In this document: positions 447-13,570 of the stretch, piece by piece
How positions within the stretch are numbered: the first letter of the stretch is position 1
Layout: every line of letters starts with the position of its first letter
Virus record (IMG/VR): IMGVR_UViG_3300032287_000313
Location: 1 to 21,834 of that record
Origin: a virus
Reading direction: 5' to 3' (one strand)
Length of the DNA stretch: 21,834 nucleotides
The notes under the pieces: model-generated
Told to the model about the DNA's origin: nothing
The model's database searches: none
The model's input: only the letters and a program-made list of their open reading frames with translations
Made by a program: the position numbers and the translations under genes

Positions 447-872
447 ATGCAGCTTGCTAACTCAGAACTTATCATCAAAGACCACACAGAGTGGTTTCCC
501 AATACATCTTTTGGTGACCGGGGTCCAAGCCTTGACTGGATTGTTGAACAGGGCTACTACGTCATCTCAGTATGGAAACCCTACGACTACAACACCGAAA
601 AACTTGTTTCAACCACTCCTCATCTGTATGACGGGATGTGCTGTCTAGTTAATGTTGAACCTCTAACGGCTGAAGAACTTCAGTCACGGATTGACACCCA
701 ATGGAGTGCAATTCGCAGCGCCCGTAACGAGATGCTCAAAGACACTGACTGGACGCAGTTATCGGACTCTCCGGTTGACAAAACCGCATGGTCGGTGTAC
801 CGTCAGGCATTGCGCGATATCACAACTCAGCCTGACCCGTTTAACATCGCATGGCCGAAGCAAAATGGCTAA
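447..872 (+). CDS. Tail-fibre assembly chaperone-like protein (Phage_tail_APC type)
   Basis: A 141-residue protein starting two bases after the LamG fibre stop. The C-terminal half (about 80-139) has the pattern of the phage tail assembly chaperone family: a Trp/Arg-rich helix (QWSAIRSARNEML), then DTDWTQLSDSPVD, the AWSVYRQALRDI core and a final P-x-x-x-A-W-P. The N-terminal half (FPNTSFGDRGPSLDW, YYVISVWKPYD) resembles the beta part of fibre-assembly proteins. Such proteins help the preceding fibre fold or trimerise and may stay at its tip. The position directly behind a fibre supports this. The last codons overlap the start of the next gene by eight bases. Function is inferred from motif and context. 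Confidence 0.75.
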   Translation: MQLANSELIIKDHTEWFPNTSFGDRGPSLDWIVEQGYYVISVWKPYDYNTEKLVSTTPHLYDGMCCLVNVEPLTAEELQSRIDTQWSAIRSARNEMLKDTDWTQLSDSPVDKTAWSVYRQALRDITTQPDPFNIAWPKQNG

Positions 873-1119
873 ATCACCTGCATGGCAAAGAGCAGAAGGC
901 AAGGACCCCAAGGGGGGCCTGAACGCGAAGGGACGCGCGTCCGCCAAATCACAGGGGATGAATTTAAAACCCCCCGCACCGAAACCAAAAACGAAAGAAG
1001 ACGCCGGGAGAAGGAAGAGCTTCTGTGCGAGATCGGCTGGCCAAGCGAAGATGTTTCCTTCTGCCGCGAAGGACCCCGAAAGCCGTTTGAATAAGGCGAG
1101 ACGGAAATGGGCATGTTGA
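865..1119 (+). CDS. DUF6321-like small basic Cys-containing protein
   Basis: An 84-residue, Lys/Arg-rich protein beginning MAKSPAWQRAEGKDPKGGLN and ending SRLNKARRKWAC. The start is ATG 865, overlapping the preceding stop; a longer open frame exists upstream in the same phase but lies inside the chaperone gene. I recognise the pattern PAWQR-EGK-P-GGLN-KGRAS, then a middle RRKSFCAR with a small-residue loop, then DPESRxNKxxRKWxC at the end, as a conserved family of phage proteins (DUF6321 as I recall). Conserved Cys (residues 54 and 84) hint at a metal or disulphide, but no function is known to me. It overlaps the endonuclease VII-like gene by 13 bases if that gene starts at 1107, so the two are probably translationally coupled. 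Confidence 0.75.
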   Translation: MAKSPAWQRAEGKDPKGGLNAKGRASAKSQGMNLKPPAPKPKTKEDAGRRKSFCARSAGQAKMFPSAAKDPESRLNKARRKWAC

Positions 1120-1514: not shown

Positions 1515-1756
1515 TGGAGATGGAACACACTATCTGGAACGCAGTTCTTTCGGTGGGTATCAGCATTGTTGGGTTCTTCCTCAAGAGCATGTATGACGAG
1601 ACAAAACGCCTTCAAGTACTGATCAACAAGACCCGCGAAGAAGTTGCTAAAGAGTACGTAACCAAGACACAATTGGACGCAGACATCAATCGCATCTTTG
1701 ATCGGCTTGACCGGCTTGAAGCTAAGATCGACCGGCTGGTAGAGAAGCATGCCTAG
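1514..1756 (+). CDS. Small membrane-anchored coiled-coil protein
   Basis: An 80-residue protein with one hydrophobic segment near the N-terminus (about 6-23, IWNAVLSVGISIVGFFL) and a long charged helix (24-80) with heptad-like spacing, RIFDRLDRLEAKIDRLVEK. I chose ATG 1514, which overlaps the preceding TGA as TGATG; an in-frame GTG three bases upstream is possible. Proteins of this shape are common in phage lysis and tail regions (spanin- or holin-accessory-like), but no specific family is recognised. It follows an endonuclease VII-like gene, exactly as the membrane/coiled-coil gene at 13557 follows the second one. It overlaps the next gene by eight bases. Confidence 0.75.
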   Translation: MEMEHTIWNAVLSVGISIVGFFLKSMYDETKRLQVLINKTREEVAKEYVTKTQLDADINRIFDRLDRLEAKIDRLVEKHA

Positions 1757-2093
1757 TACGTCAAAGAAGCAACACAATTTTATGGAGGCTGTAGCCCACA
1801 GCCCCAGTTTTGCCAAGAAAGCTGGCGTCCCTCAGTCCGTGGGCAAGGACTTCGCAGCGGCTGATAAGGGTCGTAAATTTTCAAAAGGTGGTGAGATGGC
1901 TGAGTCAAAGAAAATGGTCGGTAAAGAAGTGGCTTTCATGAAAAAGAAAGGTGCTCCTGCCGCTATGGTCAAGCATGAGAAAGCTGAGATGATGGGCATG
2001 AAGAAGGGCGGGGCTGCTTCTTCACGCGCGGACGGGATTGCCCAGAAAGGCAAGACCAAAGGCAAACTACTCAAAAAAGGCGGAGCCTGCTAA
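1749..2093 (+). CDS. Basic DUF3008-like protein with C-terminal RADG module
   Basis: A 114-residue, very Lys-rich protein. The N-terminus (MPSTSKKQHNFMEAVAHSPS, then KKAGVPQSVGKDF) matches a recurring small phage family close to DUF3008. The middle contains SKKMVGKEVAFMKKKGAPAA. The C-terminus carries SSRADGIAQKGKTKGK followed by LLKKGGAC. The RADG stretch is shared with the next two genes. The hydrophobic-x-x-Gly-Gly motif occurs three times here (FSKGG 44-48, MKKGG 84-88, LKKGG 108-112). The charge suggests nucleic-acid or capsid-interior contact, but this is inference. ATG 1749 overlaps the previous stop. Confidence 0.8.
   Translation: MPSTSKKQHNFMEAVAHSPSFAKKAGVPQSVGKDFAAADKGRKFSKGGEMAESKKMVGKEVAFMKKKGAPAAMVKHEKAEMMGMKKGGAASSRADGIAQKGKTKGKLLKKGGAC
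2019..2066 (+). repeat. RADG C-terminal module, copy 1
   Basis: Codes for SSRADGIAQKGKTKGK near the C-terminus of the 1749 protein. Close relatives follow at 2501-2548 and 2782-2829. Confidence 0.8.
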
Positions 2094-2095
2094 TC

Positions 2096-2557
2096 ATGGC
2101 TAAGAAAGAAGTCGTCAGCAAAGCTGAGCTTGAAGCATCTGAGTACACCAATCTTAGGGATTACCTGAACGCCAAACGCGGACTTACCCGTAAAGGCGGA
2201 GAAGCCCCAGATTACAAAGCTGGGCGCACACCTGCGGCCCCGACTACTAGCGAGCCAAAAGAATATACTAAGGCTTCGGATGGCATGCAGTCCCCCGACA
2301 TGGCTGCGGCGTTGCGCAAAGGGTATGCGGACGTAGGACCCCAAACCGACAAACCAAAAGCAGAAATGCCTTTTGCAGAAAGGTACTTGGGACGCGCTAG
2401 TAAAGAAGATCGTATGGCTATGCGCGAGCGAGCGCCCAAGTTTATTCAGAATGCACTTGACGCGGTTGGGCTTAAAAAGGGCGGTTCTGTTTCCTCGGCT
2501 TCTTCGCGTGCAGATGGGTGTGCGCAACGCGGCAAAACTAAAGGAAAGGTAGTTTAA
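2096..2557 (+). CDS. Conserved small basic protein with C-terminal RADG module
   Basis: A 153-residue protein of unknown function, starting two bases after the previous stop (junction TAATCATG). The N-terminal part is helical and charged (SKAELEASEYTNLRDYLNAK); the middle is loop-like (residues 35-85, Pro/Asp/Lys-rich); a second helical part covers about 90-125 (PFAERYLGR, EDRMAMRERAPKFIQNAL). The C-terminus is VGLKKGG, a short Ser linker, then SSRADGCAQRGKTKGKVV, almost identical to the tails of both neighbours although the rest is unrelated. No catalytic motif is seen. It may be a virion cargo or assembly protein, judging only from the structural gene context. Confidence 0.75.
   Translation: MAKKEVVSKAELEASEYTNLRDYLNAKRGLTRKGGEAPDYKAGRTPAAPTTSEPKEYTKASDGMQSPDMAAALRKGYADVGPQTDKPKAEMPFAERYLGRASKEDRMAMRERAPKFIQNALDAVGLKKGGSVSSASSRADGCAQRGKTKGKVV
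2501..2548 (+). repeat. RADG C-terminal module, copy 2
   Basis: Codes for SSRADGCAQRGKTKGK at the C-terminus of the 2096 protein. Its first 23 bases (2501-2523) are identical to 2782-2804. Confidence 0.85.
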
Positions 2558-2559
2558 TC

Positions 2560-2838
2560 ATGAAAGGTATCGACATTCTTGATCCTTTGCATATTACTAG
2601 ATCATTGGCGTCTTCCGGGGCAATGGGGCTTGTGCCTAAAGCGCTATCAGATAGCTTTGAAAAAGAAAAACAGGAGAAGGAAAAAGCTGCGCAAGCCAAT
2701 ATGATGTCCGGCTCGCCCGGTATGGCCCCCGGCATGAAGCGTGGCGGCGCAGTTAAAAAGATGGCTAAAGGCGGCTCGGCATCTTCGCGTGCAGATGGGT
2801 GTGCTGCCAAGGGCAAGACCAAGGGTCGGTTTGTATGA
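2560..2838 (+). CDS. Small protein with C-terminal RADG module
   Basis: A 92-residue protein: a moderately hydrophobic N-terminus (GIDILDPLHITRSLASSGAM), a Lys/Glu helix (FEKEKQEKEKAAQANMM), a Gly/Pro/Met linker, then MKRGG and MAKGG motifs and the ending SSRADGCAAKGKTKGRFV. The C-terminal module matches that of the two genes upstream; 23 bases of it are identical in DNA to those in the preceding gene. The start is two bases after the previous stop (TAATCATG). The stop overlaps the next start as ATGA. Function unknown. Confidence 0.75.
   Translation: MKGIDILDPLHITRSLASSGAMGLVPKALSDSFEKEKQEKEKAAQANMMSGSPGMAPGMKRGGAVKKMAKGGSASSRADGCAAKGKTKGRFV
2782..2829 (+). repeat. RADG C-terminal module, copy 3
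   Basis: Codes for SSRADGCAAKGKTKGR at the C-terminus of the 2560 protein. Shares 23 identical bases with copy 2, more than the surrounding genes share, which suggests a recent duplication or conversion of the module alone. Confidence 0.85.
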
Positions 2839-3068
2839 GAGCCAGTCGCGGCATGGGGGACATTAACCCCAAGAAGATGCCGGGTGCAAAGGTCAAGGCG
2901 CGCCGCGACGACACGGATTTTACTGAGTACAAGAAGGGCGGACCCGTTGGCTTGTACGCCAACATCAATGCCAAGCGTAAGCGTGGGGCTAAGATGCGTA
3001 AACCCGGAGATCCGGGAGCACCGACTGCTCAAGCGTTTATTGACTCGGCTAAAACCGCGAGGAAGTGA
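2835..3068 (+). CDS. Conserved small basic phage protein (GLYANINAKRKRG family)
   Basis: A 77-residue protein rich in Lys and Arg. It starts MRASRGMGDINPKKMPGAK, has a YKKGG motif at 32-36, then GLYANINAKRKRGAKMRKPG and ends APTAQAFIDSAKTARK. The GLYANI-AKRKRG-KMRKPG-GAPTA core is a pattern I know from several uncultured aquatic phages, with no assigned function. I chose ATG 2835, which overlaps the previous stop as ATGA; the longer frame from 2799 would run back into that gene. It ends in an ATGA overlap with the Gln-rich gene. A role inside the virion is plausible from context only. Confidence 0.75.
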   Translation: MRASRGMGDINPKKMPGAKVKARRDDTDFTEYKKGGPVGLYANINAKRKRGAKMRKPGDPGAPTAQAFIDSAKTARK

Positions 3069-3886
3069 TGGCAGGCGGATCTGGAATTGGGAGTTCAGCA
3101 AACCAAGCCGTACAAGGCGCTGCGGCTAACGGGCTGTTTAGTGGCAATAGGGCGCCGCAAGATGATTCTGGGGGATATGGCTCCACTCAAGGGAGTGGCA
3201 TGCTTAAGGGTATAGGCGGCATCTTTGGTGTTGGGCCACCGCAACCATCGCAAACCAATCCCACACCGCAGTTTCAGAACCCCTATGGTGCGCCGACCAT
3301 ATACAACCCATATTCCCCAGCGGATCAGCGCCAGTTTGGGTTCCAGATCCCGTATCAGTTGCAAATGAACCAACAGCGACAGATGCAACAACAGCAACCC
3401 CAACGACCGGCTTTCATGGATAACCCAGAGTTTCAAGGGTATCAAAAGCAAAGCGAAGATCTGAATAGGCAGATGAATGACTACGTGAAGCAAGCGCCCA
3501 TGTATAAGCAGTTGCAGGACCTACAGGGCAAGATGCAGGGCTTCCAGAAGCAGTATGAACCACAGGGACAAGCAGCTATGCGCGCTGCATTGGACGACAG
3601 CGGCATGGGTCGCGGCGGTCAACAGCAGTTTAATCCATACCAACGACAGCAGTTTAACCCGTACCAAATGTACGGCGGATTAGGTGGCCTGTTTGGTATG
3701 CAGAACGCATACGCTCAACAACCGCAGCAAAGTACGCAAGCGCAAATAAATGCAGCAAACCAACAGTTCCTTCAACGGGGGCAGGCAATCTCTAACCCAG
3801 CGCCGTCTACAACGGGTGTTACTAATTCACGGCAACCCGCACAGCAAGATTGGACATCCCAATCTTGGTCGTCAGACGGCTACTAA
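3068..3886 (+). CDS. Gln/Asn/Pro/Tyr-rich low-complexity protein
   Basis: A 272-residue protein dominated by Gln, Gly, Pro, Asn and Tyr. NPY motifs recur (QNPYG, YNPYS, then FNPYQ twice at close range), along with poly-Gln stretches. A more helical section lies at about 120-180 (YQKQSEDLNRQMNDYVKQAP, LQDLQGKMQGFQKQY). No enzyme motif or signal peptide is seen. The composition is that of a flexible, prion-like or assembly-scaffold protein, unlike its basic neighbours. I take ATG 3068 (ATGA overlap) over the GTG at 3065. It stands between the small basic proteins and the first adaptor gene, so a virion or assembly role is likely but unproven. Confidence 0.75.
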   Translation: MAGGSGIGSSANQAVQGAAANGLFSGNRAPQDDSGGYGSTQGSGMLKGIGGIFGVGPPQPSQTNPTPQFQNPYGAPTIYNPYSPADQRQFGFQIPYQLQMNQQRQMQQQQPQRPAFMDNPEFQGYQKQSEDLNRQMNDYVKQAPMYKQLQDLQGKMQGFQKQYEPQGQAAMRAALDDSGMGRGGQQQFNPYQRQQFNPYQMYGGLGGLFGMQNAYAQQPQQSTQAQINAANQQFLQRGQAISNPAPSTTGVTNSRQPAQQDWTSQSWSSDGY

Positions 3887-3888
3887 GA

Positions 3889-4821
3889 ATGGCAAATACT
3901 TCCGGCCAAACTACATTTAACCTTGACCTGACGGAACTGGTCGAGGAAGCCTTTGAGCGTGCTGGCTCGGAGTTGCGCTCTGGGTATGATCTTCGTACGG
4001 CTAGGCGGTCGCTCAACCTCATGTTTGCCGACTGGGCAAACCGGGGCATTAACATGTGGACGTTTGAGCAGGGCACGATCACCCTAGTACCGGGGCAGAA
4101 CACGTACCCGCTTCCCAACGACACAGTGGATTTGCTTGAGCATGTAATCCGCACGAACGCTAACAGCGGCGCTAACCAATCCGACCTAACGATCACTCGC
4201 ATCAGCGTATCGACGTACGCCACGCTGCCAAACAAACTGGCGCAAGGTCGGCCTATTCAAGTGTGGGTTCAGCGCTATAATGGACAAACAACGCCAGTTT
4301 CAGCTACGCTGAGCACAACAATTAGTAGCACGGACACGACTATTACGGTTAGTTCTGTGGACAACTTGCCTGCTGCGGGGTTTGTTAAGATTGACTCGGA
4401 AGTTATTAACTACGGCTATATAACTGGCAACACGCTGTATAACTGTTTCCGTGCGCAGCAGAACACAACGGCGGCGGGACATACGGCAGGCGCTACAGTT
4501 TATTGGCAACAGACCCCGGCTGTTACGGTCTGGCCCACACCAGATACTTCGACCCCATACCAACTTGTTTATTGGCGTATGCGGCGCACGCAGGATGCTG
4601 GCGGCGGTGTGAATGTTATGGATGTGCCGTTTAGGTTTATTCCGTGTATGGCGGCGGGGCTTGCGTATTACGTGGCATTAAAAGTTCCCAACGGCATGCA
4701 GCGCCTTGATGTGTTGAAGATGCAGTACGACGAAGCTTGGGAAATGGCTGCGCAAGAAGATCGTGAAACGGCGGCGCTTCGTTTGGTGCCGCGTCAGATG
4801 TTTATCGGGTATGGTCCGTAA
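3889..4821 (+). CDS. Head-tail/tail connector (adaptor-like) structural protein with inserted beta module
   Basis: A 310-residue protein. The N-terminal helical part (LTELVEEAFERAG, YDLRTARRSLNLMFADWANR) followed by LVPGQNTYPLPNDTVDLLEH has the layout of podovirus connector/adaptor proteins (compare T7 gp11, P22 gp4 and the SU10-type adaptor). The C-terminal part (TVWPTPDTSTPYQLVYW, DVPFRFIPCMAAGLAYYVAL, AAQEDRETAALRLVPRQM) completes that fold. Between them, at about residues 137-206, lies a Thr/Ser-rich beta segment (TTITVSSVDNLPAAGFVKI, then SEVINYGYITGNTLYNCFRA) that looks like a separate inserted domain. I start at ATG 3889 because the upstream 13 codons lie inside the previous gene. Attachment below the portal is inferred. 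Confidence 0.75.
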   Translation: MANTSGQTTFNLDLTELVEEAFERAGSELRSGYDLRTARRSLNLMFADWANRGINMWTFEQGTITLVPGQNTYPLPNDTVDLLEHVIRTNANSGANQSDLTITRISVSTYATLPNKLAQGRPIQVWVQRYNGQTTPVSATLSTTISSTDTTITVSSVDNLPAAGFVKIDSEVINYGYITGNTLYNCFRAQQNTTAAGHTAGATVYWQQTPAVTVWPTPDTSTPYQLVYWRMRRTQDAGGGVNVMDVPFRFIPCMAAGLAYYVALKVPNGMQRLDVLKMQYDEAWEMAAQEDRETAALRLVPRQMFIGYGP

Positions 4822-5219: not shown

Positions 5220-5384
5220 ATGGACAAGAAGATGGTAAAGGCGATTGCGGACACAGAAGTCCGCGCGCACGAAAAGCGGCTACACAAAGGCGTCAAGAAA
5301 TTGAAGGCCGGCGGTCCCACTACGGATGACCGCATGAAGTACGGCAAAAATTTGTCCCGCGCCATGAACCAAGGTAGCAAATAA
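5220..5384 (+). CDS. Small basic conserved protein (54 residues)
   Basis: A short gene starting at ATG 5220: MDKKMVKAIADTEVRAHEKR, then LHKGVKKLKAGGPTTDDRMK and a short tail ending QGSK. AGGA in TAGGAATCATC ahead of the ATG can act as ribosome-binding site, and the stop overlaps the next start as TAATG, so it fits the operon precisely. The pattern (AIADxEVRAHExR, then KxGGPTxxDRMKxG) is one I recall from related phage genomes. It carries LKAGG at 28-32, another case of the hydrophobic-x-x-Gly-Gly motif. Function unknown. Confidence 0.75.
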   Translation: MDKKMVKAIADTEVRAHEKRLHKGVKKLKAGGPTTDDRMKYGKNLSRAMNQGSK

Positions 5385-5650
5385 TGGCTAAGTTCAGCAT
5401 GAAACAAGGCGGCAAAGAGGTCGGCCCAGCTTCAGTTTACGCAGAACCGCACACTATGGACGGCAAGGCCGGTGTAGATCTGGGCAATAGCGGGTATGGT
5501 GCGGGCAATCGGATTAAACCAGAAGACTTGGCGCTGAGTGTGGGCGAGTTCCGTTCTAAGCCATACGCCGAGGTTAAGGCGACCGGAATTAAAACCCGTG
5601 GTAATGGTTGTGCTACTAAAGGCACGATGGCTCGGGGACCGATGGCGTGA
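5384..5650 (+). CDS. Conserved small protein with GNGCATKG C-terminus
   Basis: An 88-residue protein starting MAKFSMKQGGKEVGPASVYA and ending KTRGNGCATKG then TMARGPMA. The C-terminal R-x-N-G-C-A-x-K-G (residues 72-80) resembles the R-A-D-G-C-A-x-x-G module of the genes at 1749, 2096 and 2560. MKQGG at 6-10 is another hydrophobic-x-x-Gly-Gly motif. The middle (PHTMDGKAGVDLGNSGYGAG, LALSVGEFRSKPY) has no recognised fold. Both ends overlap neighbours (TAATG upstream, GTGA downstream). Function unknown; it lies between two adaptor-type genes. Confidence 0.75.
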   Translation: MAKFSMKQGGKEVGPASVYAEPHTMDGKAGVDLGNSGYGAGNRIKPEDLALSVGEFRSKPYAEVKATGIKTRGNGCATKGTMARGPMA

Positions 5651-7254: not shown

Positions 7255-8487
7255 ATGGCATTTGTTGTTGCTGATCGGGTAAAGGAAACCACCACTACGG
7301 CTGGCACAGGGGCAGTAACTTTGGCTGGGGCGGTTGCGGGGTTTCAGTCTTTCGCTGTCGGCATTGGTAACAGCAATACGACCTACTACACGATTGCCAG
7401 CCAGACTGCGACTGAATGGGAAGTTGGCTACGGGACTCTTAACGCTTCCAGCACAGTTTTAACCCGGACAACGGTGCTCGCATCAAGCAATAACGGTTCA
7501 TTAGTTTCATTTTCGGCGGGAACAAAAGAAGTATTTGTCACCCAACCAGCTACTCGGACGCTCGTTCAAGCCAATGGCGGCGCTTCTACTAACGGGGTTT
7601 TATTTTATACCGGCTCTGGTGTTGCCACAGCAACAAGTGCGCTTACGTTTGATGGTACTAATTTTGCAACAACGGGGAGCGCTACAGCGGGCAGTGTTAC
7701 AACAGCGGGGACAGTTACAGCGACGGGCACGGCGACAGCAGCAAGTCTAATTCCCACAAGCAGCACTGCGCCTACCAACGGCATGTACTTACCTGCCGCC
7801 AACACGGTAGGGTTTGCTACTAACAGTGCTGGCGTTGTGTACATCAACGCTTCCGGCAACTTGCTGGTTGGTACGGCGACCAACGGAAAACGGCTAACTG
7901 TTTCTGATTCTATAGAATCCACTGCAACATTTATACGAACAGACAATACTGTAGGCAATGAAGGCTTAATTGACTTCCAGATGCAAAATAGCAGCAATGC
8001 TGCTGTTGTATACGCGCAAATTGGTTCGTCTATTAACGCCAATACTGCGGGGGCTGTTAACGGCAGTTTTGTTATTAACACCGCCAATGCTTCGGTAGTT
8101 ACTGAAAAAGTCCGCGTTGACAACGCCGGTAACGTGCAAGTGCAAGCTGGCGCGGTTATGTCTTATTCCCCAACTCCGCTTGCAGTTACTGGCGCTATTA
8201 ACCCACTAACCAACGCAAATCTTCAAACGCAAATTCTTAGTTGCACGGGCACCGCCCCCTACACATTAACAATGCCGCTAGGGACCACGCTTGATACGTT
8301 AGCAGACTGGTCAACTACAAACATAGCGTACGACTTTATTGTTATCAACGGCACCGCTGGTACGGTCACTGTGGCAGTAAATACTGGCGTCACAAACGTG
8401 GGAACACTTACGGTCCTAACAGGTATTTCCGCCCGATTCCGTATCCGCAGAACTGCTGCAAGTACATACATTTTGTATCGGATTTAA
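7255..8487 (+). CDS. Tail fibre protein (trimeric beta fibre type)
   Basis: A 410-residue protein. Its N-terminal 100 residues (VADRVKETTTTAGTGAVTLA, then FAVGIGNSNTTYYTI, WEVGYGTL, LTRTTVLASSNNGSLVSFSA with GTKEVFVT) form a module widely used to begin phage fibres. The middle is repetitive Thr/Ala/Gly sequence with short beta repeats (TTGSATAGSVTTAGTVTATG), followed by a knob-like part around 200-300 (INASGNLLVGTATNGKRLTV, VRVDNAGNVQV). The C-terminal about 60 residues (YDFIVINGTAGTVTVAV, ARFRIRRTAASTYILYRI) form a terminal domain also known from other fibres. No S74 peptidase motif was seen. The start is in a TAATCATG junction. Confidence 0.8.
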   Translation: MAFVVADRVKETTTTAGTGAVTLAGAVAGFQSFAVGIGNSNTTYYTIASQTATEWEVGYGTLNASSTVLTRTTVLASSNNGSLVSFSAGTKEVFVTQPATRTLVQANGGASTNGVLFYTGSGVATATSALTFDGTNFATTGSATAGSVTTAGTVTATGTATAASLIPTSSTAPTNGMYLPAANTVGFATNSAGVVYINASGNLLVGTATNGKRLTVSDSIESTATFIRTDNTVGNEGLIDFQMQNSSNAAVVYAQIGSSINANTAGAVNGSFVINTANASVVTEKVRVDNAGNVQVQAGAVMSYSPTPLAVTGAINPLTNANLQTQILSCTGTAPYTLTMPLGTTLDTLADWSTTNIAYDFIVINGTAGTVTVAVNTGVTNVGTLTVLTGISARFRIRRTAASTYILYRI

Positions 8488-9645: not shown

Positions 9646-11010
9646 ATGTCCATGCGCTACAAAGGGGCGGTAATATCAGCAACCCCGCCGAGCACATCGT
9701 TAGCACGGGCTACCGGATCTTGGACGCTAGTTCAACAAATGCAGGCGCAAGCTGCGGGTACTTGGCCCACCCAAATTGGCGGCACTTACTGGATGGGGAC
9801 GCTTAGTGGTGGATCTATTGGGGCTATAACCGTAGATCCTCTTGGCAACTCTTATACTTGCGGTTCAGTCTCAACCAACTTTTTAATAGCCAAATACAAT
9901 AGCTTTGGCGCTATTCAATGGCAAAGAAGTTTAGGGGGTTTGGACGGTAATTCAAATACCGGTCTTGCTGTTGCAACAGACTCTTCTGGCAACGTGTACG
10001 TTTGTGGTCAAGCATACTCTAACGTAACAGGCAGTCCACGCAGTTCGTACCTTGAGTTAGCCAAGTACGATACGTACGGAGTTATTCAATGGCAAAAGAG
10101 TTTAGGAACGGGGCTTATCACTGTTGCGGCAGGAACTTCTATAGCAGTAGATTTGTCGGGTAATATATATGTTTCTGGATTTGCATCCCCAATCTCTTCG
10201 AGTACGTTTTATTTTCAAATAGCTAAATATGACAATTCTGGCGTTATTCAATGGCAAAGAAGATTAAGTTCTGGGAGCACTATACCCAGCATGGGCACAG
10301 CCGTAGATGTTTACGGTAATGTGTATTTTTGTGGGGACTACGGTGATGGGGAGACGTATTCCGGGTTTTTAATAGCTAAGTACAATACTTATGGGTCTAT
10401 TCAGTGGCAAAGACAAATCGAGAATTTAAGCAGTCCTTTTACTGGCGGTTCTGGTATCGCAGTAGATTTATCTAGCAACGTTTATATTGGGGGCAACTTA
10501 CTTAGTAGTGGAAACGGCGTTCCTGCACTAATTAAGTACGATACTTCAGGCACGTTGCAGTGGCGAAGAATTTTAGATGATGGCAGTTTTGGCGGTGGGG
10601 GCATTAGTGTTGCAGTAGATCCTTCTGGGAATGCGTATGTTGGTGCCCTTTTAGCAACAAAGAGTGTAATAGCAAAATACGACCCGTCCGGTACGATCCA
10701 GTGGCAAAGAAGCTTGAGTTCTGGTGCCGGTGCTGCTATAGCAGTAGACTACTCTTCTAATGTCTATGTTACGACACGTTCCGGTTCCGGCATTTTGGTT
10801 GCAAAACTTCCAACTGACGGTTCGTTAACAGGTACGTACACGGTTGGCGGTACGGCAATTACTTACGCAGTCACATCGTACACTGCCGCGTCTAGCTCTG
10901 CCGCTAGTGCAGTAGCTGGTAATAGCGACACTGTTTCAACTCTTGCTGATGCGACCTCATCGCTTACGGACGCCACTACATCCTTAACTTCTGCCGTTAC
11001 TACACTATGA
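9646..11010 (+). CDS. Seven-bladed beta-propeller tail fibre / receptor-binding protein A
   Basis: A 454-residue protein. Residues 1-41 (MSMRYKGAVIS, G24-x-WTL-x-Q30, GTWP 38-41) match the start of the protein at 11275 without gaps and probably attach to the virion. Residues 49-402 hold seven copies of a 45-55 residue unit ending AVDxSGNVYVCG, a variable loop, (I/L)AKYxxxGxIQWQRSL, as in beta-propeller (SBBP-type) repeats. The seventh unit lacks its IQWQRSL strand, and the first strand (YWMGTLSGG) precedes the first full unit, so the ring may be closed by a Velcro strand. The C-terminal about 50 residues are Ser/Thr/Ala-rich, the last 22 with Leu at every seventh position (433, 440, 447, 454). 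Receptor binding is inferred. ATGA overlap with the next gene. Confidence 0.8.
   Translation: MSMRYKGAVISATPPSTSLARATGSWTLVQQMQAQAAGTWPTQIGGTYWMGTLSGGSIGAITVDPLGNSYTCGSVSTNFLIAKYNSFGAIQWQRSLGGLDGNSNTGLAVATDSSGNVYVCGQAYSNVTGSPRSSYLELAKYDTYGVIQWQKSLGTGLITVAAGTSIAVDLSGNIYVSGFASPISSSTFYFQIAKYDNSGVIQWQRRLSSGSTIPSMGTAVDVYGNVYFCGDYGDGETYSGFLIAKYNTYGSIQWQRQIENLSSPFTGGSGIAVDLSSNVYIGGNLLSSGNGVPALIKYDTSGTLQWRRILDDGSFGGGGISVAVDPSGNAYVGALLATKSVIAKYDPSGTIQWQRSLSSGAGAAIAVDYSSNVYVTTRSGSGILVAKLPTDGSLTGTYTVGGTAITYAVTSYTAASSSAASAVAGNSDTVSTLADATSSLTDATTSLTSAVTTL
9790..10851 (+). repeat. Seven propeller-blade repeats in fibre A
   Basis: Seven imperfect units of roughly 140-170 bases, each ending in a sequence close to ATTCAATGGCAAAGAAG (for instance near 9913, 10083, 10248, 10399 and 10698). 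The units are more alike at the blade-end strand and the AVDxSGN strand than in the loops between. The same DNA motif occurs in the paralogue at 11416-12447, giving many short homologous tracts for recombination between or within the two genes. Confidence 0.8.
10942..11007 (+). repeat. Seven-residue repeats at the C-terminus of fibre A
   Basis: Three 21-base units LADATSS, LTDATTS, LTSAVTT closed by a final Leu, with Leu at residues 433, 440, 447 and 454. The pattern is a shorter version of the C-terminal repeat of the fibre at 11275. Confidence 0.8.
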
Positions 11011-11282
11011 GTTCATACATCAAACTATCGACGCTTGAGTTCCCACGCCACATTGGGGACATTGAGATTGACCCTGTTGGGATGGATGACTATGCGCATG
11101 TTGAGTGGGTAGACCAACCTGAGTACGACCCAAAGACCCAGCGGTGCGTGGCAGGACCGCCGCAGCAGACTGACGGCACTTGGTACTGGACATGGGAAGT
11201 TCGTGACGCTACACCAGAAGAGATTGCGTTTGCTAATCGCCCGTTTGACCCAAGAAACCCATTTGGCTTAAACAATGTCTAA
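11007..11282 (+). CDS. Short tail-fibre chaperone-like protein
   Basis: A 91-residue protein between the two propeller fibres, overlapping both (ATGA upstream, eight bases downstream). The sequence IKLSTLEFPRHIGDIEIDPV, VEWVDQPEYDPKTQRC, TDGTWYWTWEVRDATPEEIA resembles the N-terminal half of tail-fibre assembly proteins, comparable with residues 10-75 of the protein at 447. It lacks the DWTxL and YRQALRD half of that family, so it is a one-domain version. The end (FDPRNPFGLNNV) is unlike the 447 protein. A chaperone role for fibre A (or both fibres) is inferred from position and partial resemblance. Confidence 0.6.
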   Translation: MSSYIKLSTLEFPRHIGDIEIDPVGMDDYAHVEWVDQPEYDPKTQRCVAGPPQQTDGTWYWTWEVRDATPEEIAFANRPFDPRNPFGLNNV

Positions 11283-12609
11283 ACGCTACCCCGGTGGGTT
11301 GATCACTAAGACCCCCGTAGTCCCCACAACGTCTGCCGCCCCCGGCATTTGGACACTTGATCAAACGATAGCGTATATCAAGGCTGGGACATGGCCGTTA
11401 CCAAATAACGTCTATTGGATTGGGCGCTTAATTGATTCTTTTGGGGCAAAATGTAATTCCGTTGCGCTAGATTCTAATAACAATGTTTATCTTTGTGGGT
11501 ATACAATCCCAAGTTCTGGTGGCGCTACTGATTTTCAATTAGCTAAATACAACACTGTTGGCGCGATTCAATGGCAATTAAGGCTAGAGGGGAGTAGTTC
11601 GACGGACACAGGCAATTCTATTGCTATAGATTCTTCTAACAACATTTATGTTTGTGGGGTTTCCAATGACAGCGGGACCTCGGACGCCCAAATAGCCAAG
11701 TACGATGCAACCGGCGCGCTTGGGTGGCAGAGGAAAATAACTAATGGTTCTAATCTATCTATTGCGGTAGATGCGTCTGGGGGTGTATATGTCTGCGGCT
11801 ATAACGTAAGTTTTGAAATAATTAAATACAACGGTTCTGGGGCTATTCAGTGGCAAAGAAGTTTAAGCGGAGGGATAAGTAGTTTTGGTTATTCAGTTGC
11901 TGCGGATTCTTCTGGGAATGTCTATGTATTGGGTACTTCCGACGTAAGTGGTAATTTTGACTTTCAAATAGCTAAATACAATACGTCTGGAATTATCCAA
12001 TGGAAAAGACAGTTAAACAGCGCTGCACTTGATATACCGGGAACAATAGCCGTAGATTCTTCTGGTAACTCCTATATTTGTGGGGCTGCGGGTTCTTCTA
12101 TTCAAATAGCTAAATACAACACTTCTGGAGCTATTCAATGGCAAAGATCTTTAACTGGCGGAACTAATAATAAAGGATTTGGGGTCGCGGTAGACGCTTC
12201 AAGCAATGTCTATGTTTGTGGTAATTCGGATATCTCAGGTACTGGGGATGCCATAATCGCCAAATACAACACTTCTGGAACCATTCAGTGGCAAAGAAGT
12301 TTGGGCAGCGCTGGCACGGATTCTGCGCAATCTATTGCGGTGGATACTCTGGGGAATGTTTACATTTGTGGCAACAGCACAAACAGCTTTTTATTCGCCA
12401 GACTTCCCGGCGACGGTTCGTTGACTGGCACATACACGGTTGGCGGTTCTTCGTTTACTTACGCTGCTTCTTCACTTGCAGATTCTTCCACTTCGCTTAC
12501 TGACTCGGCATCCACGCTTACTGACGCTGCTACTTTGCTTATCGACTCTACCTCGTCGCTCAGCAACACAACTACAACATTTACTTCTTCAGTTACAACA
12601 ATCCCATAA
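11275..12609 (+). CDS. Seven-bladed beta-propeller tail fibre / receptor-binding protein B
   Basis: A 444-residue paralogue of the 9646 protein. N-terminal module 1-41 (MSKRYPGGLITKTP, G24-IWTLDQ30, GTWP 38-41). Residues 48-391 contain seven blade units of the form SIAVDSSGNVYVCG, loop, IAKYNTSGxIQWQRSL; the seventh ends in LFARLPGDGSLTGTYTVGG like the last unit of fibre A. The C-terminus is an exact seven-residue repeat: F394, L401, L408, L415, L422, L429, F436, I443 separated by Ser/Thr/Asp/Ala-rich hexads. The blades differ from those of fibre A mostly in the loops, where receptor specificity would lie. Tandem position implies duplication followed by divergence. No separate chaperone gene follows. 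Confidence 0.8.
   Translation: MSKRYPGGLITKTPVVPTTSAAPGIWTLDQTIAYIKAGTWPLPNNVYWIGRLIDSFGAKCNSVALDSNNNVYLCGYTIPSSGGATDFQLAKYNTVGAIQWQLRLEGSSSTDTGNSIAIDSSNNIYVCGVSNDSGTSDAQIAKYDATGALGWQRKITNGSNLSIAVDASGGVYVCGYNVSFEIIKYNGSGAIQWQRSLSGGISSFGYSVAADSSGNVYVLGTSDVSGNFDFQIAKYNTSGIIQWKRQLNSAALDIPGTIAVDSSGNSYICGAAGSSIQIAKYNTSGAIQWQRSLTGGTNNKGFGVAVDASSNVYVCGNSDISGTGDAIIAKYNTSGTIQWQRSLGSAGTDSAQSIAVDTLGNVYICGNSTNSFLFARLPGDGSLTGTYTVGGSSFTYAASSLADSSTSLTDSASTLTDAATLLIDSTSSLSNTTTTFTSSVTTIP
11416..12447 (+). repeat. Seven propeller-blade repeats in fibre B
   Basis: Seven units of about 130-170 bases, parallel to those of fibre A. Blade-end DNA such as CTATTCAATGGCAAAGA near 12131 and GCTATTCAGTGGCAAAGAAG near 11842 is almost the same between units and between the two genes. 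Confidence 0.8.
12454..12603 (+). repeat. Seven-residue repeats at the C-terminus of fibre B
   Basis: Seven consecutive 21-base units (FTYAASS, LADSSTS, LTDSAST, LTDAATL, LIDSTSS, LSNTTTT, FTSSVTT) closed by Ile, with one hydrophobic residue exactly every seven positions and mostly Ser, Thr, Ala and Asp between. Fibre A has a shorter version. It may trimerise the fibre or form a thin stalk. Confidence 0.85.
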
Positions 12610-13129: not shown

Positions 13130-13570
13130 ATGCTGTTCTGCGCCGTCTGCCGTGGGGAATTTCTACGAGAAGACCTGATCGTTCACGGTCGCAAGGACTA
13201 TTTTCTCTGTAGCGCGTGTAAGTCAGACGTAAATCGTCTTTCTCGGTTCGGGCTGTCCCCATCAGATTATGACTTCCTGTTGAAACTTCAGGGGTATAAT
13301 TGCGCTATCTGTAACAACCCCCTCAAGCTCAAGCAGTACAAGTTTGCGGTCGATCATTGTCACGACTCGGATGATGTACGTGGGATCTTGTGTGTACGAT
13401 GTAACACGGCGCTAGGTAGCTTTGACGATGACCCGGACATGATCTTGCGAGCCGCAGAATACTTGAACAACCCACCAGCTTTGGGTAAAGTCAAACGACA
13501 TGATGGTCGTAAAAAAGTTTCGTTTCTGCGGAGCGAGTACATAAGGATGCACGGCGATGGAGATAGCTGA
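13130..13570 (+). CDS. Recombination endonuclease VII-like nuclease (copy 2)
   Basis: A 146-residue His-Me finger nuclease of the endonuclease VII type. The N-terminal zinc-finger-like Cys pairs are CAVC (4-7) and CSAC (27-30). The core is CAIC (58-61), VDHCHDSDDVRGILC with Asp 75, His 76 and His 78, then CVRCN (88-92) containing the last Cys pair and the catalytic Asn 92, followed by ALGSFDDDP. This is the family layout, with DHCH in place of the DHDH of copy 1. Copy 2 differs strongly in its termini and ends GKVKRHDGRKKVSFLRSEYI, a basic tail that copy 1 lacks. It likely resolves branched DNA or nicks host DNA. It overlaps the next gene and may be controlled by the hairpin before it. Confidence 0.85.
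   Translation: MLFCAVCRGEFLREDLIVHGRKDYFLCSACKSDVNRLSRFGLSPSDYDFLLKLQGYNCAICNNPLKLKQYKFAVDHCHDSDDVRGILCVRCNTALGSFDDDPDMILRAAEYLNNPPALGKVKRHDGRKKVSFLRSEYIRMHGDGDS

Follow-up and report, generated by a model that had tools for sequence, protein, structure and literature searches.

A short, basic peptide closes three consecutive and otherwise unrelated proteins in a 21,834-nucleotide stretch of DNA from an uncultivated virus (IMG/VR record IMGVR_UViG_3300032287_000313; hereafter the window), and recurs, mostly at C-termini, in proteins of very different kinds encoded by related phages. The observation is thereby larger than first noted, having grown from three copies in the window to 322 matches on up to ~100 families of protein bodies, and the conservation of this tag is at the level of the protein. 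We place a probability of about 0.5 on its being a short linear C-terminal docking tag, by which a single head-assembly partner would recruit the bearers to the particle.

The tagged genes of the window

The original prediction that three successive genes of the window end in a common module is confirmed by their ORFs and by matches to a profile (A2) built from 24 diverse copies of the tag (E-values from 1.5e-14 to 3.1e-19). The SSRADG core first described is real, whereas the true start of the module lies further upstream and includes the preceding KKGG. The features considered here are:

865..1119, + strand: DUF6321 protein, untagged, Cys-ending (PF19846, E=1.6e-17)
1749..2093, + strand: tagged protein 1, 114 aa (ORF); N-terminal SKKQHNFM...SVGKDF domain, tag and Cys-ending tail
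1992..2069, + strand: tag copy 1 (KKGG...SSRADGIAQKGKTKGK; profile A2, E=1.5e-14)
2070..2093, + strand: tail after tag copy 1, 7-8 extra residues with a C-terminal Cys (LKKGGAC)
2096..2557, + strand: tagged protein 2, 153 aa (ORF); body without database match
2468..2554, + strand: tag copy 2 (KKGGSVSSASSRADGCAQRGKTKGKVV; profile A2, E=3.1e-19)
2560..2838, + strand: tagged protein 3, 92 aa (ORF); body without database match
2755..2835, + strand: tag copy 3 (AKGGSASSRADGCAAKGKTKGRFV; profile A2, E=4.5e-15)
2835..3068, + strand: small GLYANI-module protein, next gene of the cassette, its start overlapping the stop of tagged protein 3
3850..4821, + strand: SU10-type head-tail adaptor, closing the tagged-gene island on its right (PF24175, E=1.6e-9; phrog_12985)
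5384..5650, + strand: protein ending KTRGNGCATKGTMARGPMA, a separate orthologous family whose C-terminus is possibly tag-related

The C-terminal ends of the three ORFs are SSRADGIAQKGKTKGKLLKKGGAC (1749-2093), SSRADGCAQRGKTKGKVV (2096-2557) and SSRADGCAAKGKTKGRFV (2560-2838), and the 23 identical bases reported for copies 2 and 3 are indeed present as the 23-mer TCTTCGCGTGCAGATGGGTGTGC at 2501-2523 and 2782-2804. The claim that the bodies do not align also holds: BLASTP gave no match at E<10, and HHalign returned a probability of at most 1.2% for all pairs, with profiles for proteins 2 and 3 that are shallow and could miss very remote homology. Homology of the three proteins over their full length was rejected on these comparisons of the bodies. 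None of them matches a Pfam family. The N-terminus of protein 1 matches phrog_16759 together with the virion structural protein families phrog_22033 and phrog_25121, and aligns at 74% over 43 aa with PHIKZ165.1 of phiKZ, which sits near the annotated phiKZ head proteins 163 and 164. AlphaFold predicts a helical body for protein 1 (block-mean pLDDT 73-86 over the first 40 residues) with a disordered tag of pLDDT <50, while its model of protein 2 is of low confidence. Gene position and family names suggest that the tagged proteins are located in the virion.

Among the neighboring genes, the GLYANI protein (2835..3068) matches phrog_16028, phrog_22379 and phrog_11180, with tblastn matches in cyanophages and pelagiphages. 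In 72 loci the family of the 5384 protein, encoded behind the adaptor, ends almost invariably in IKIRGTGAATKGVMARGPMA; the string RGNGCATKG that had been singled out near its end is present, but its kinship with the tag is weak (HHalign probability of 16% over 10 columns), and this terminus may be distantly related to the tag. Elsewhere in the window, two proteins 12 kb apart (1107-1514, just before the tagged genes, and 13130-13570) contain CxxC...DHDH/DHCH motifs and resemble recombination endonuclease VII/HNH enzymes. The frames at 9646-11010 and 11275-12609 encode paralogues in which 'AKYNTSGAIQWQRSL...VDSSGNVYVCG' units recur, and the pair probably forms beta-propeller-like tail or spike proteins.

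Distribution and genomic setting of the tag

A search with protein 2 recovered at least 510 viral contigs and, beyond the closest ~19, the likeness is mostly limited to the C-terminal part. We assembled 161 related viral loci (the best 80 of these at least 510 contigs, 80 loci chosen by their major capsid protein (MCP) alone, and Planktothrix phage Pag-Yong1) and searched them along with the window. The tag profile produced 322 matches of at least 15 bits, on many kinds of bodies, as against 0 in 37,099 reversed frames. Frequent internal placement, which would speak against a tag, was not found: 223 of the 322 end no more than one residue from the C-terminus and a further 88 within 30 residues of it, leaving only 11 further inside. 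All save one (321/322) lie on the same strand as the MCP and adaptor, and exactly four residues follow 142 of the 159 tags in the best 80 of the at least 510 contigs.

Outside this set the tag is rare. Cellular genomes (257 Gb) contributed only four confirmed matches, of which L167, the one looked at more closely, proved to be a phage region whose genes follow the same order. The plasmids and solved structures searched contained no tag. It is also nearly absent from named phages, with a diverged copy ending UMO75986.1 of Pag-Yong1 (OL906435), whose gene is flanked by those for the MCP and the portal-adaptor. The records OL906435, OQ594354 and PP438419 are each exactly 65,014 bases long and have an identical tag peptide despite different reported cyanobacterial hosts, and their host assignment may need checking. 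What looked like a tag in DUF6321 of pelagiphage HTVC115P was rejected, as the alignment ran through a stop and no tag is present. The tag is missing from ten further records whose MCPs are homologous, cultured phages among them, save for a single marginal match, broken by an internal stop, in Caulobacter phage RW; the tag-less MCP relatives include HTVC023P, HTVC027P, CRP-901/902, DSL-LC04 and an Alcaligenes phage, and the cultured tag-less phages of the same MCP family are at 57-64% identity. The existence of such relatives implies that the tag is accessory to the capsid itself.

The tagged genes occupy a constant position in the structural operon, which runs through TerL, portal, GroES-like, scaffold-like, MCP (phrog_371) and decoration protein genes to DUF6321 and the tagged genes, and onward to the GLYANI gene, the SU10-type adaptor, a zinc-ribbon gene and the tail genes. 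In the MCP-chosen panel, 34 of the 35 loci that reach the adaptor have 1-5 tags between the MCP and the SU10-like adaptor, the only others belonging to a variant form in one small gene that directly follows the adaptor. This core variant, ADGIxKKGKTKG, lies near the N-terminus of the small protein, so that a C-terminal position of the core is not obligatory for all bearers. Each of 13 records of 50-79 kb has a single cluster of tags, confined to the MCP-adaptor region. The MCP falls outside the window, where the tagged genes precede the adaptor as in other loci. The tag-bearing phages form a clade of 50-67 kb tailed phages that are probably podoviruses.

Conservation of the peptide and modularity of its bearers

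The tag, about 17-30 residues long, has the consensus (K/A)KGGxVxSAS(K/S)RADG(C/I)AQRGKT(K/R)GRMV, and 180 C-terminal copies are summarized by [MYF](K/A)KGG(K/S)V-SSAS-(K/S)-R-A-D-G-(C/I)-A-Q-R-G-K-T-(K/R)-G-(R/K)-(M/I/F)-(V/C/I). It is strongly basic and Gly-rich, and in these 180 copies the columns R-16, D-14, G-13, A-11, G-8, K-7, T-6 and G-4 are near-invariant, with the Asp kept in 168 and the Thr in 171. Nearly all synonymous codons occur at the fixed residues across loci; this comparison used tags picked by a regular expression, in which some residues are fixed by construction, and the profile-based logo (n=180) agrees. Given that synonymous codons vary where the residues do not, selection must act on the tag peptide and not on the DNA. 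Codon identity is 0.48 within a locus versus 0.435 between loci, and the tags of one genome are more alike than shuffled tags (0.713 versus 0.668, p=0.002), a likeness that could stem from occasional gene conversion.

The cysteine following RADG had been proposed to bind metal or to link proteins. This did not bear out: the site is Cys in 105 of the 180 tags, Ile in 65 and another residue in 10, and the choice between Cys and Ile is random within genomes. A residue so freely replaced by Ile is not a working part of the tag, and we rejected both metal-binding and cross-linking for it. A separate, truly C-terminal Cys is found in 63 of 82 proteins with a near-C-terminal tag, compared to 2% of the ORFs in 16 related phages, and is likewise enriched in the family of the 1749 protein and in DUF6321; this Cys could serve for cross-linking or attachment.

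Single-linkage clustering sorts the tagged bodies into 99-103 families, about 75 of them singletons. This count is an upper bound, given the shortness, low complexity and fast evolution of the bodies and the chaining seen in the largest cluster (97-101 members). Charge-hydropathy marks 87% of the tagged bodies as disorder-like, compared to 22% of conserved proteins from the same phages, and their median net charge is +4 as against -2 in the controls. Searches of the bodies with Pfam, PHROGs, NCBIfam and PADLOC detected no known domain or defence function beyond DUF6321.

DUF6321 provides the best natural experiment on the tag. Its orthologues lack the tag in 109 of 111 cases, and 105 of these 109 end at a native C-terminal Cys; the tag is hence not part of the DUF6321 domain, in keeping with the absence of any Pfam match in the tagged proteins of the window. 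In the remaining two (L143 and L151) the tag comes after the normal end (LRAWNC|ADGGYVKSADGIVQKGKTKGKMC), and having been appended past the native C-terminus it represents a natural add-on. Together with the unrelated bodies and the C-terminal position, this bears out the idea of a C-terminal tag added to different proteins. DUF6321 also caps the C-terminus of larger phage protein families. The SKKQH domain found at the N-terminus of protein 1 also occurs in other combinations: in L115 (frame at 2404) a single ORF joins SKKQH, GLYANI and DUF6321 through KGG, and in L152 (frame at 8399) SKKQH and DUF6321 are joined likewise, both without a tag, whereas in the window the three modules are separate genes. 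Such swaps indicate that the tag is one of several exchangeable KGG-linked beads.

Possible roles of the tag

The suggestion of capsid loading or a common partner made in the original prediction is plausible, and consistent with the fixed MCP-adaptor locus. Under the preferred docking reading, each phage would make 1-5 small, mostly disordered late proteins ending in one basic unfolded peptide, which would be recognized during head assembly by one partner, namely the prohead interior, the scaffold or the portal/adaptor vertex. Any protein bearing the tag would thus be brought to the particle, where it would most likely be an internal and possibly ejected virion protein, and the phage could swap bodies freely while retaining the loading signal. 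The destination is probably the prohead interior or the portal vertex. A partner specific to each genome would give just the within-genome likeness of tags described above. Comparison of gene content in 9 tag-bearing and 7 tag-less whole records revealed no clean partner gene; a 252 aa tail-fibre-like family (8/9 versus 0/7) and families of 258 aa and 1614 aa (7/9 versus 0/7 each) are confounded with clade. More tentatively, a peptide of ~17 residues at the C-terminus may suffice to load any protein into the head, in which case the MCP-adaptor island would be a hypervariable stock of accessory proteins destined for injection, such as factors for host take-over or counter-defence, whose bodies are exchanged under a constant tag with no need of a prohead protease.

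Among other explanations, a tail that binds nucleic acid and anchors the proteins to the packaged genome or to phage RNA would account for the basic, Gly-rich and disordered character of the tag with its KGG and RGK strings, for the slight positive charge of the bodies and for the basic nature of adjacent small genes. We nevertheless regard it as unlikely, in that the specificity of the motif goes far beyond charge, with R, D, G, A, G, K, T and G near-fixed, and non-specific binding would hardly preserve the exact spacing from the C-terminus. We are also doubtful that the tag docks an assembly factor or a host or non-structural phage protein, such that the bearers act in the cell and not in the virion. 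While the lack of recognizable domains in the bodies, of any match to a proven virion protein over its length, and of the tag in MCP-family relatives that manage without it would all fit this scenario, the tagged genes invariably lie within the structural operon, on its strand and flanked by MCP and adaptor, and the N-terminal domain of one family is common to virion structural protein families.

Explanations at the level of nucleic acid fare worse. The 23 bases identical in copies 2 and 3 and the slightly higher codon identity within a locus might be taken as signs of a coding-DNA element spreading by a recombination hot spot or gene conversion without any common function, but fixed residues combined with free synonymous codons point to long-term purifying selection on the protein; this codon variation disfavours a recent DNA duplication or mobile coding element and makes the scenario very improbable. 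An RNA-level signal such as the ribosome-binding site of the next gene could explain the abundance of purines in the last codons and the start that follows only a few bases later, yet the conservation begins ~30 codons before any such site and is manifest in the amino acids and not in the nucleotides, by which this explanation is excluded to near certainty.

Several known systems invite comparison with the proposed docking tag. The internal proteins IPI, IPII and IPIII of T4 have an N-terminal capsid-targeting sequence (CTS) that is removed by the gp21 prohead protease (PMC9026906). Both the CTS and the tag are short terminal peptides common to proteins with divergent bodies, several small proteins of this kind occur per phage, and the packaged set of T4 internal proteins differs between related phages just as the tagged set varies, the latter being known from genes only. 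The CTS is N-terminal, in contrast to the tag, and Peptidase_S77/S78 was not detected at E<=1 in 10 records of tag phages, in a search that could miss a protease of unrecognised type. On these two grounds the tag may at most work like the T4 CTS and would not be a member of that system. The heads of crassviruses and of P22/T7 store several accessory cargo (ejection) proteins; as far as the accessible portion of that account goes, these are large and mostly folded, with no common terminal peptide noted (PMC10172136). The DUF6321 and GLYANI modules of cyanophages and pelagiphages resemble the tag in being small modules of the same cassette with KGG linkers, though DUF6321 differs in sequence, is an ~80-aa domain ending in Cys, and can itself receive the tag at its end.

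The cargo-loading peptide of encapsulins is C-terminal and disordered, and is found on non-homologous proteins that accompany an HK97-like shell. The tag shares with it the C-terminal placement on non-homologous proteins. The shell of the tag phages is however a phage capsid, with the phrog_371 MCP beside TerL, portal and scaffold-like genes, and not an encapsulin nanocompartment; binding of the tag to the shell is putative, and relatives with the same MCP family are tag-free.

A terminal signal common to unrelated phage proteins was already known from T4 (PMC9026906). The literature searched, which lay mostly outside subscription journals, contained no mention of the tag peptide strings, DUF6321 or Pag-Yong1; as far as could be checked, the tag sequence, its C-terminal placement, the many bodies and the apparent lack of a prohead protease are new. 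If the tag loads virions, it would mark dozens of unannotatable phage proteins as cargo by sequence alone, direct the search for injected proteins to a new hypervariable island, and provide a short C-terminal handle by which proteins could be packaged into phage heads. Should the partner be a different one, a single peptide on many unrelated proteins still means one shared receptor to find, which would make many 'hypothetical' phage genes experimentally tractable.
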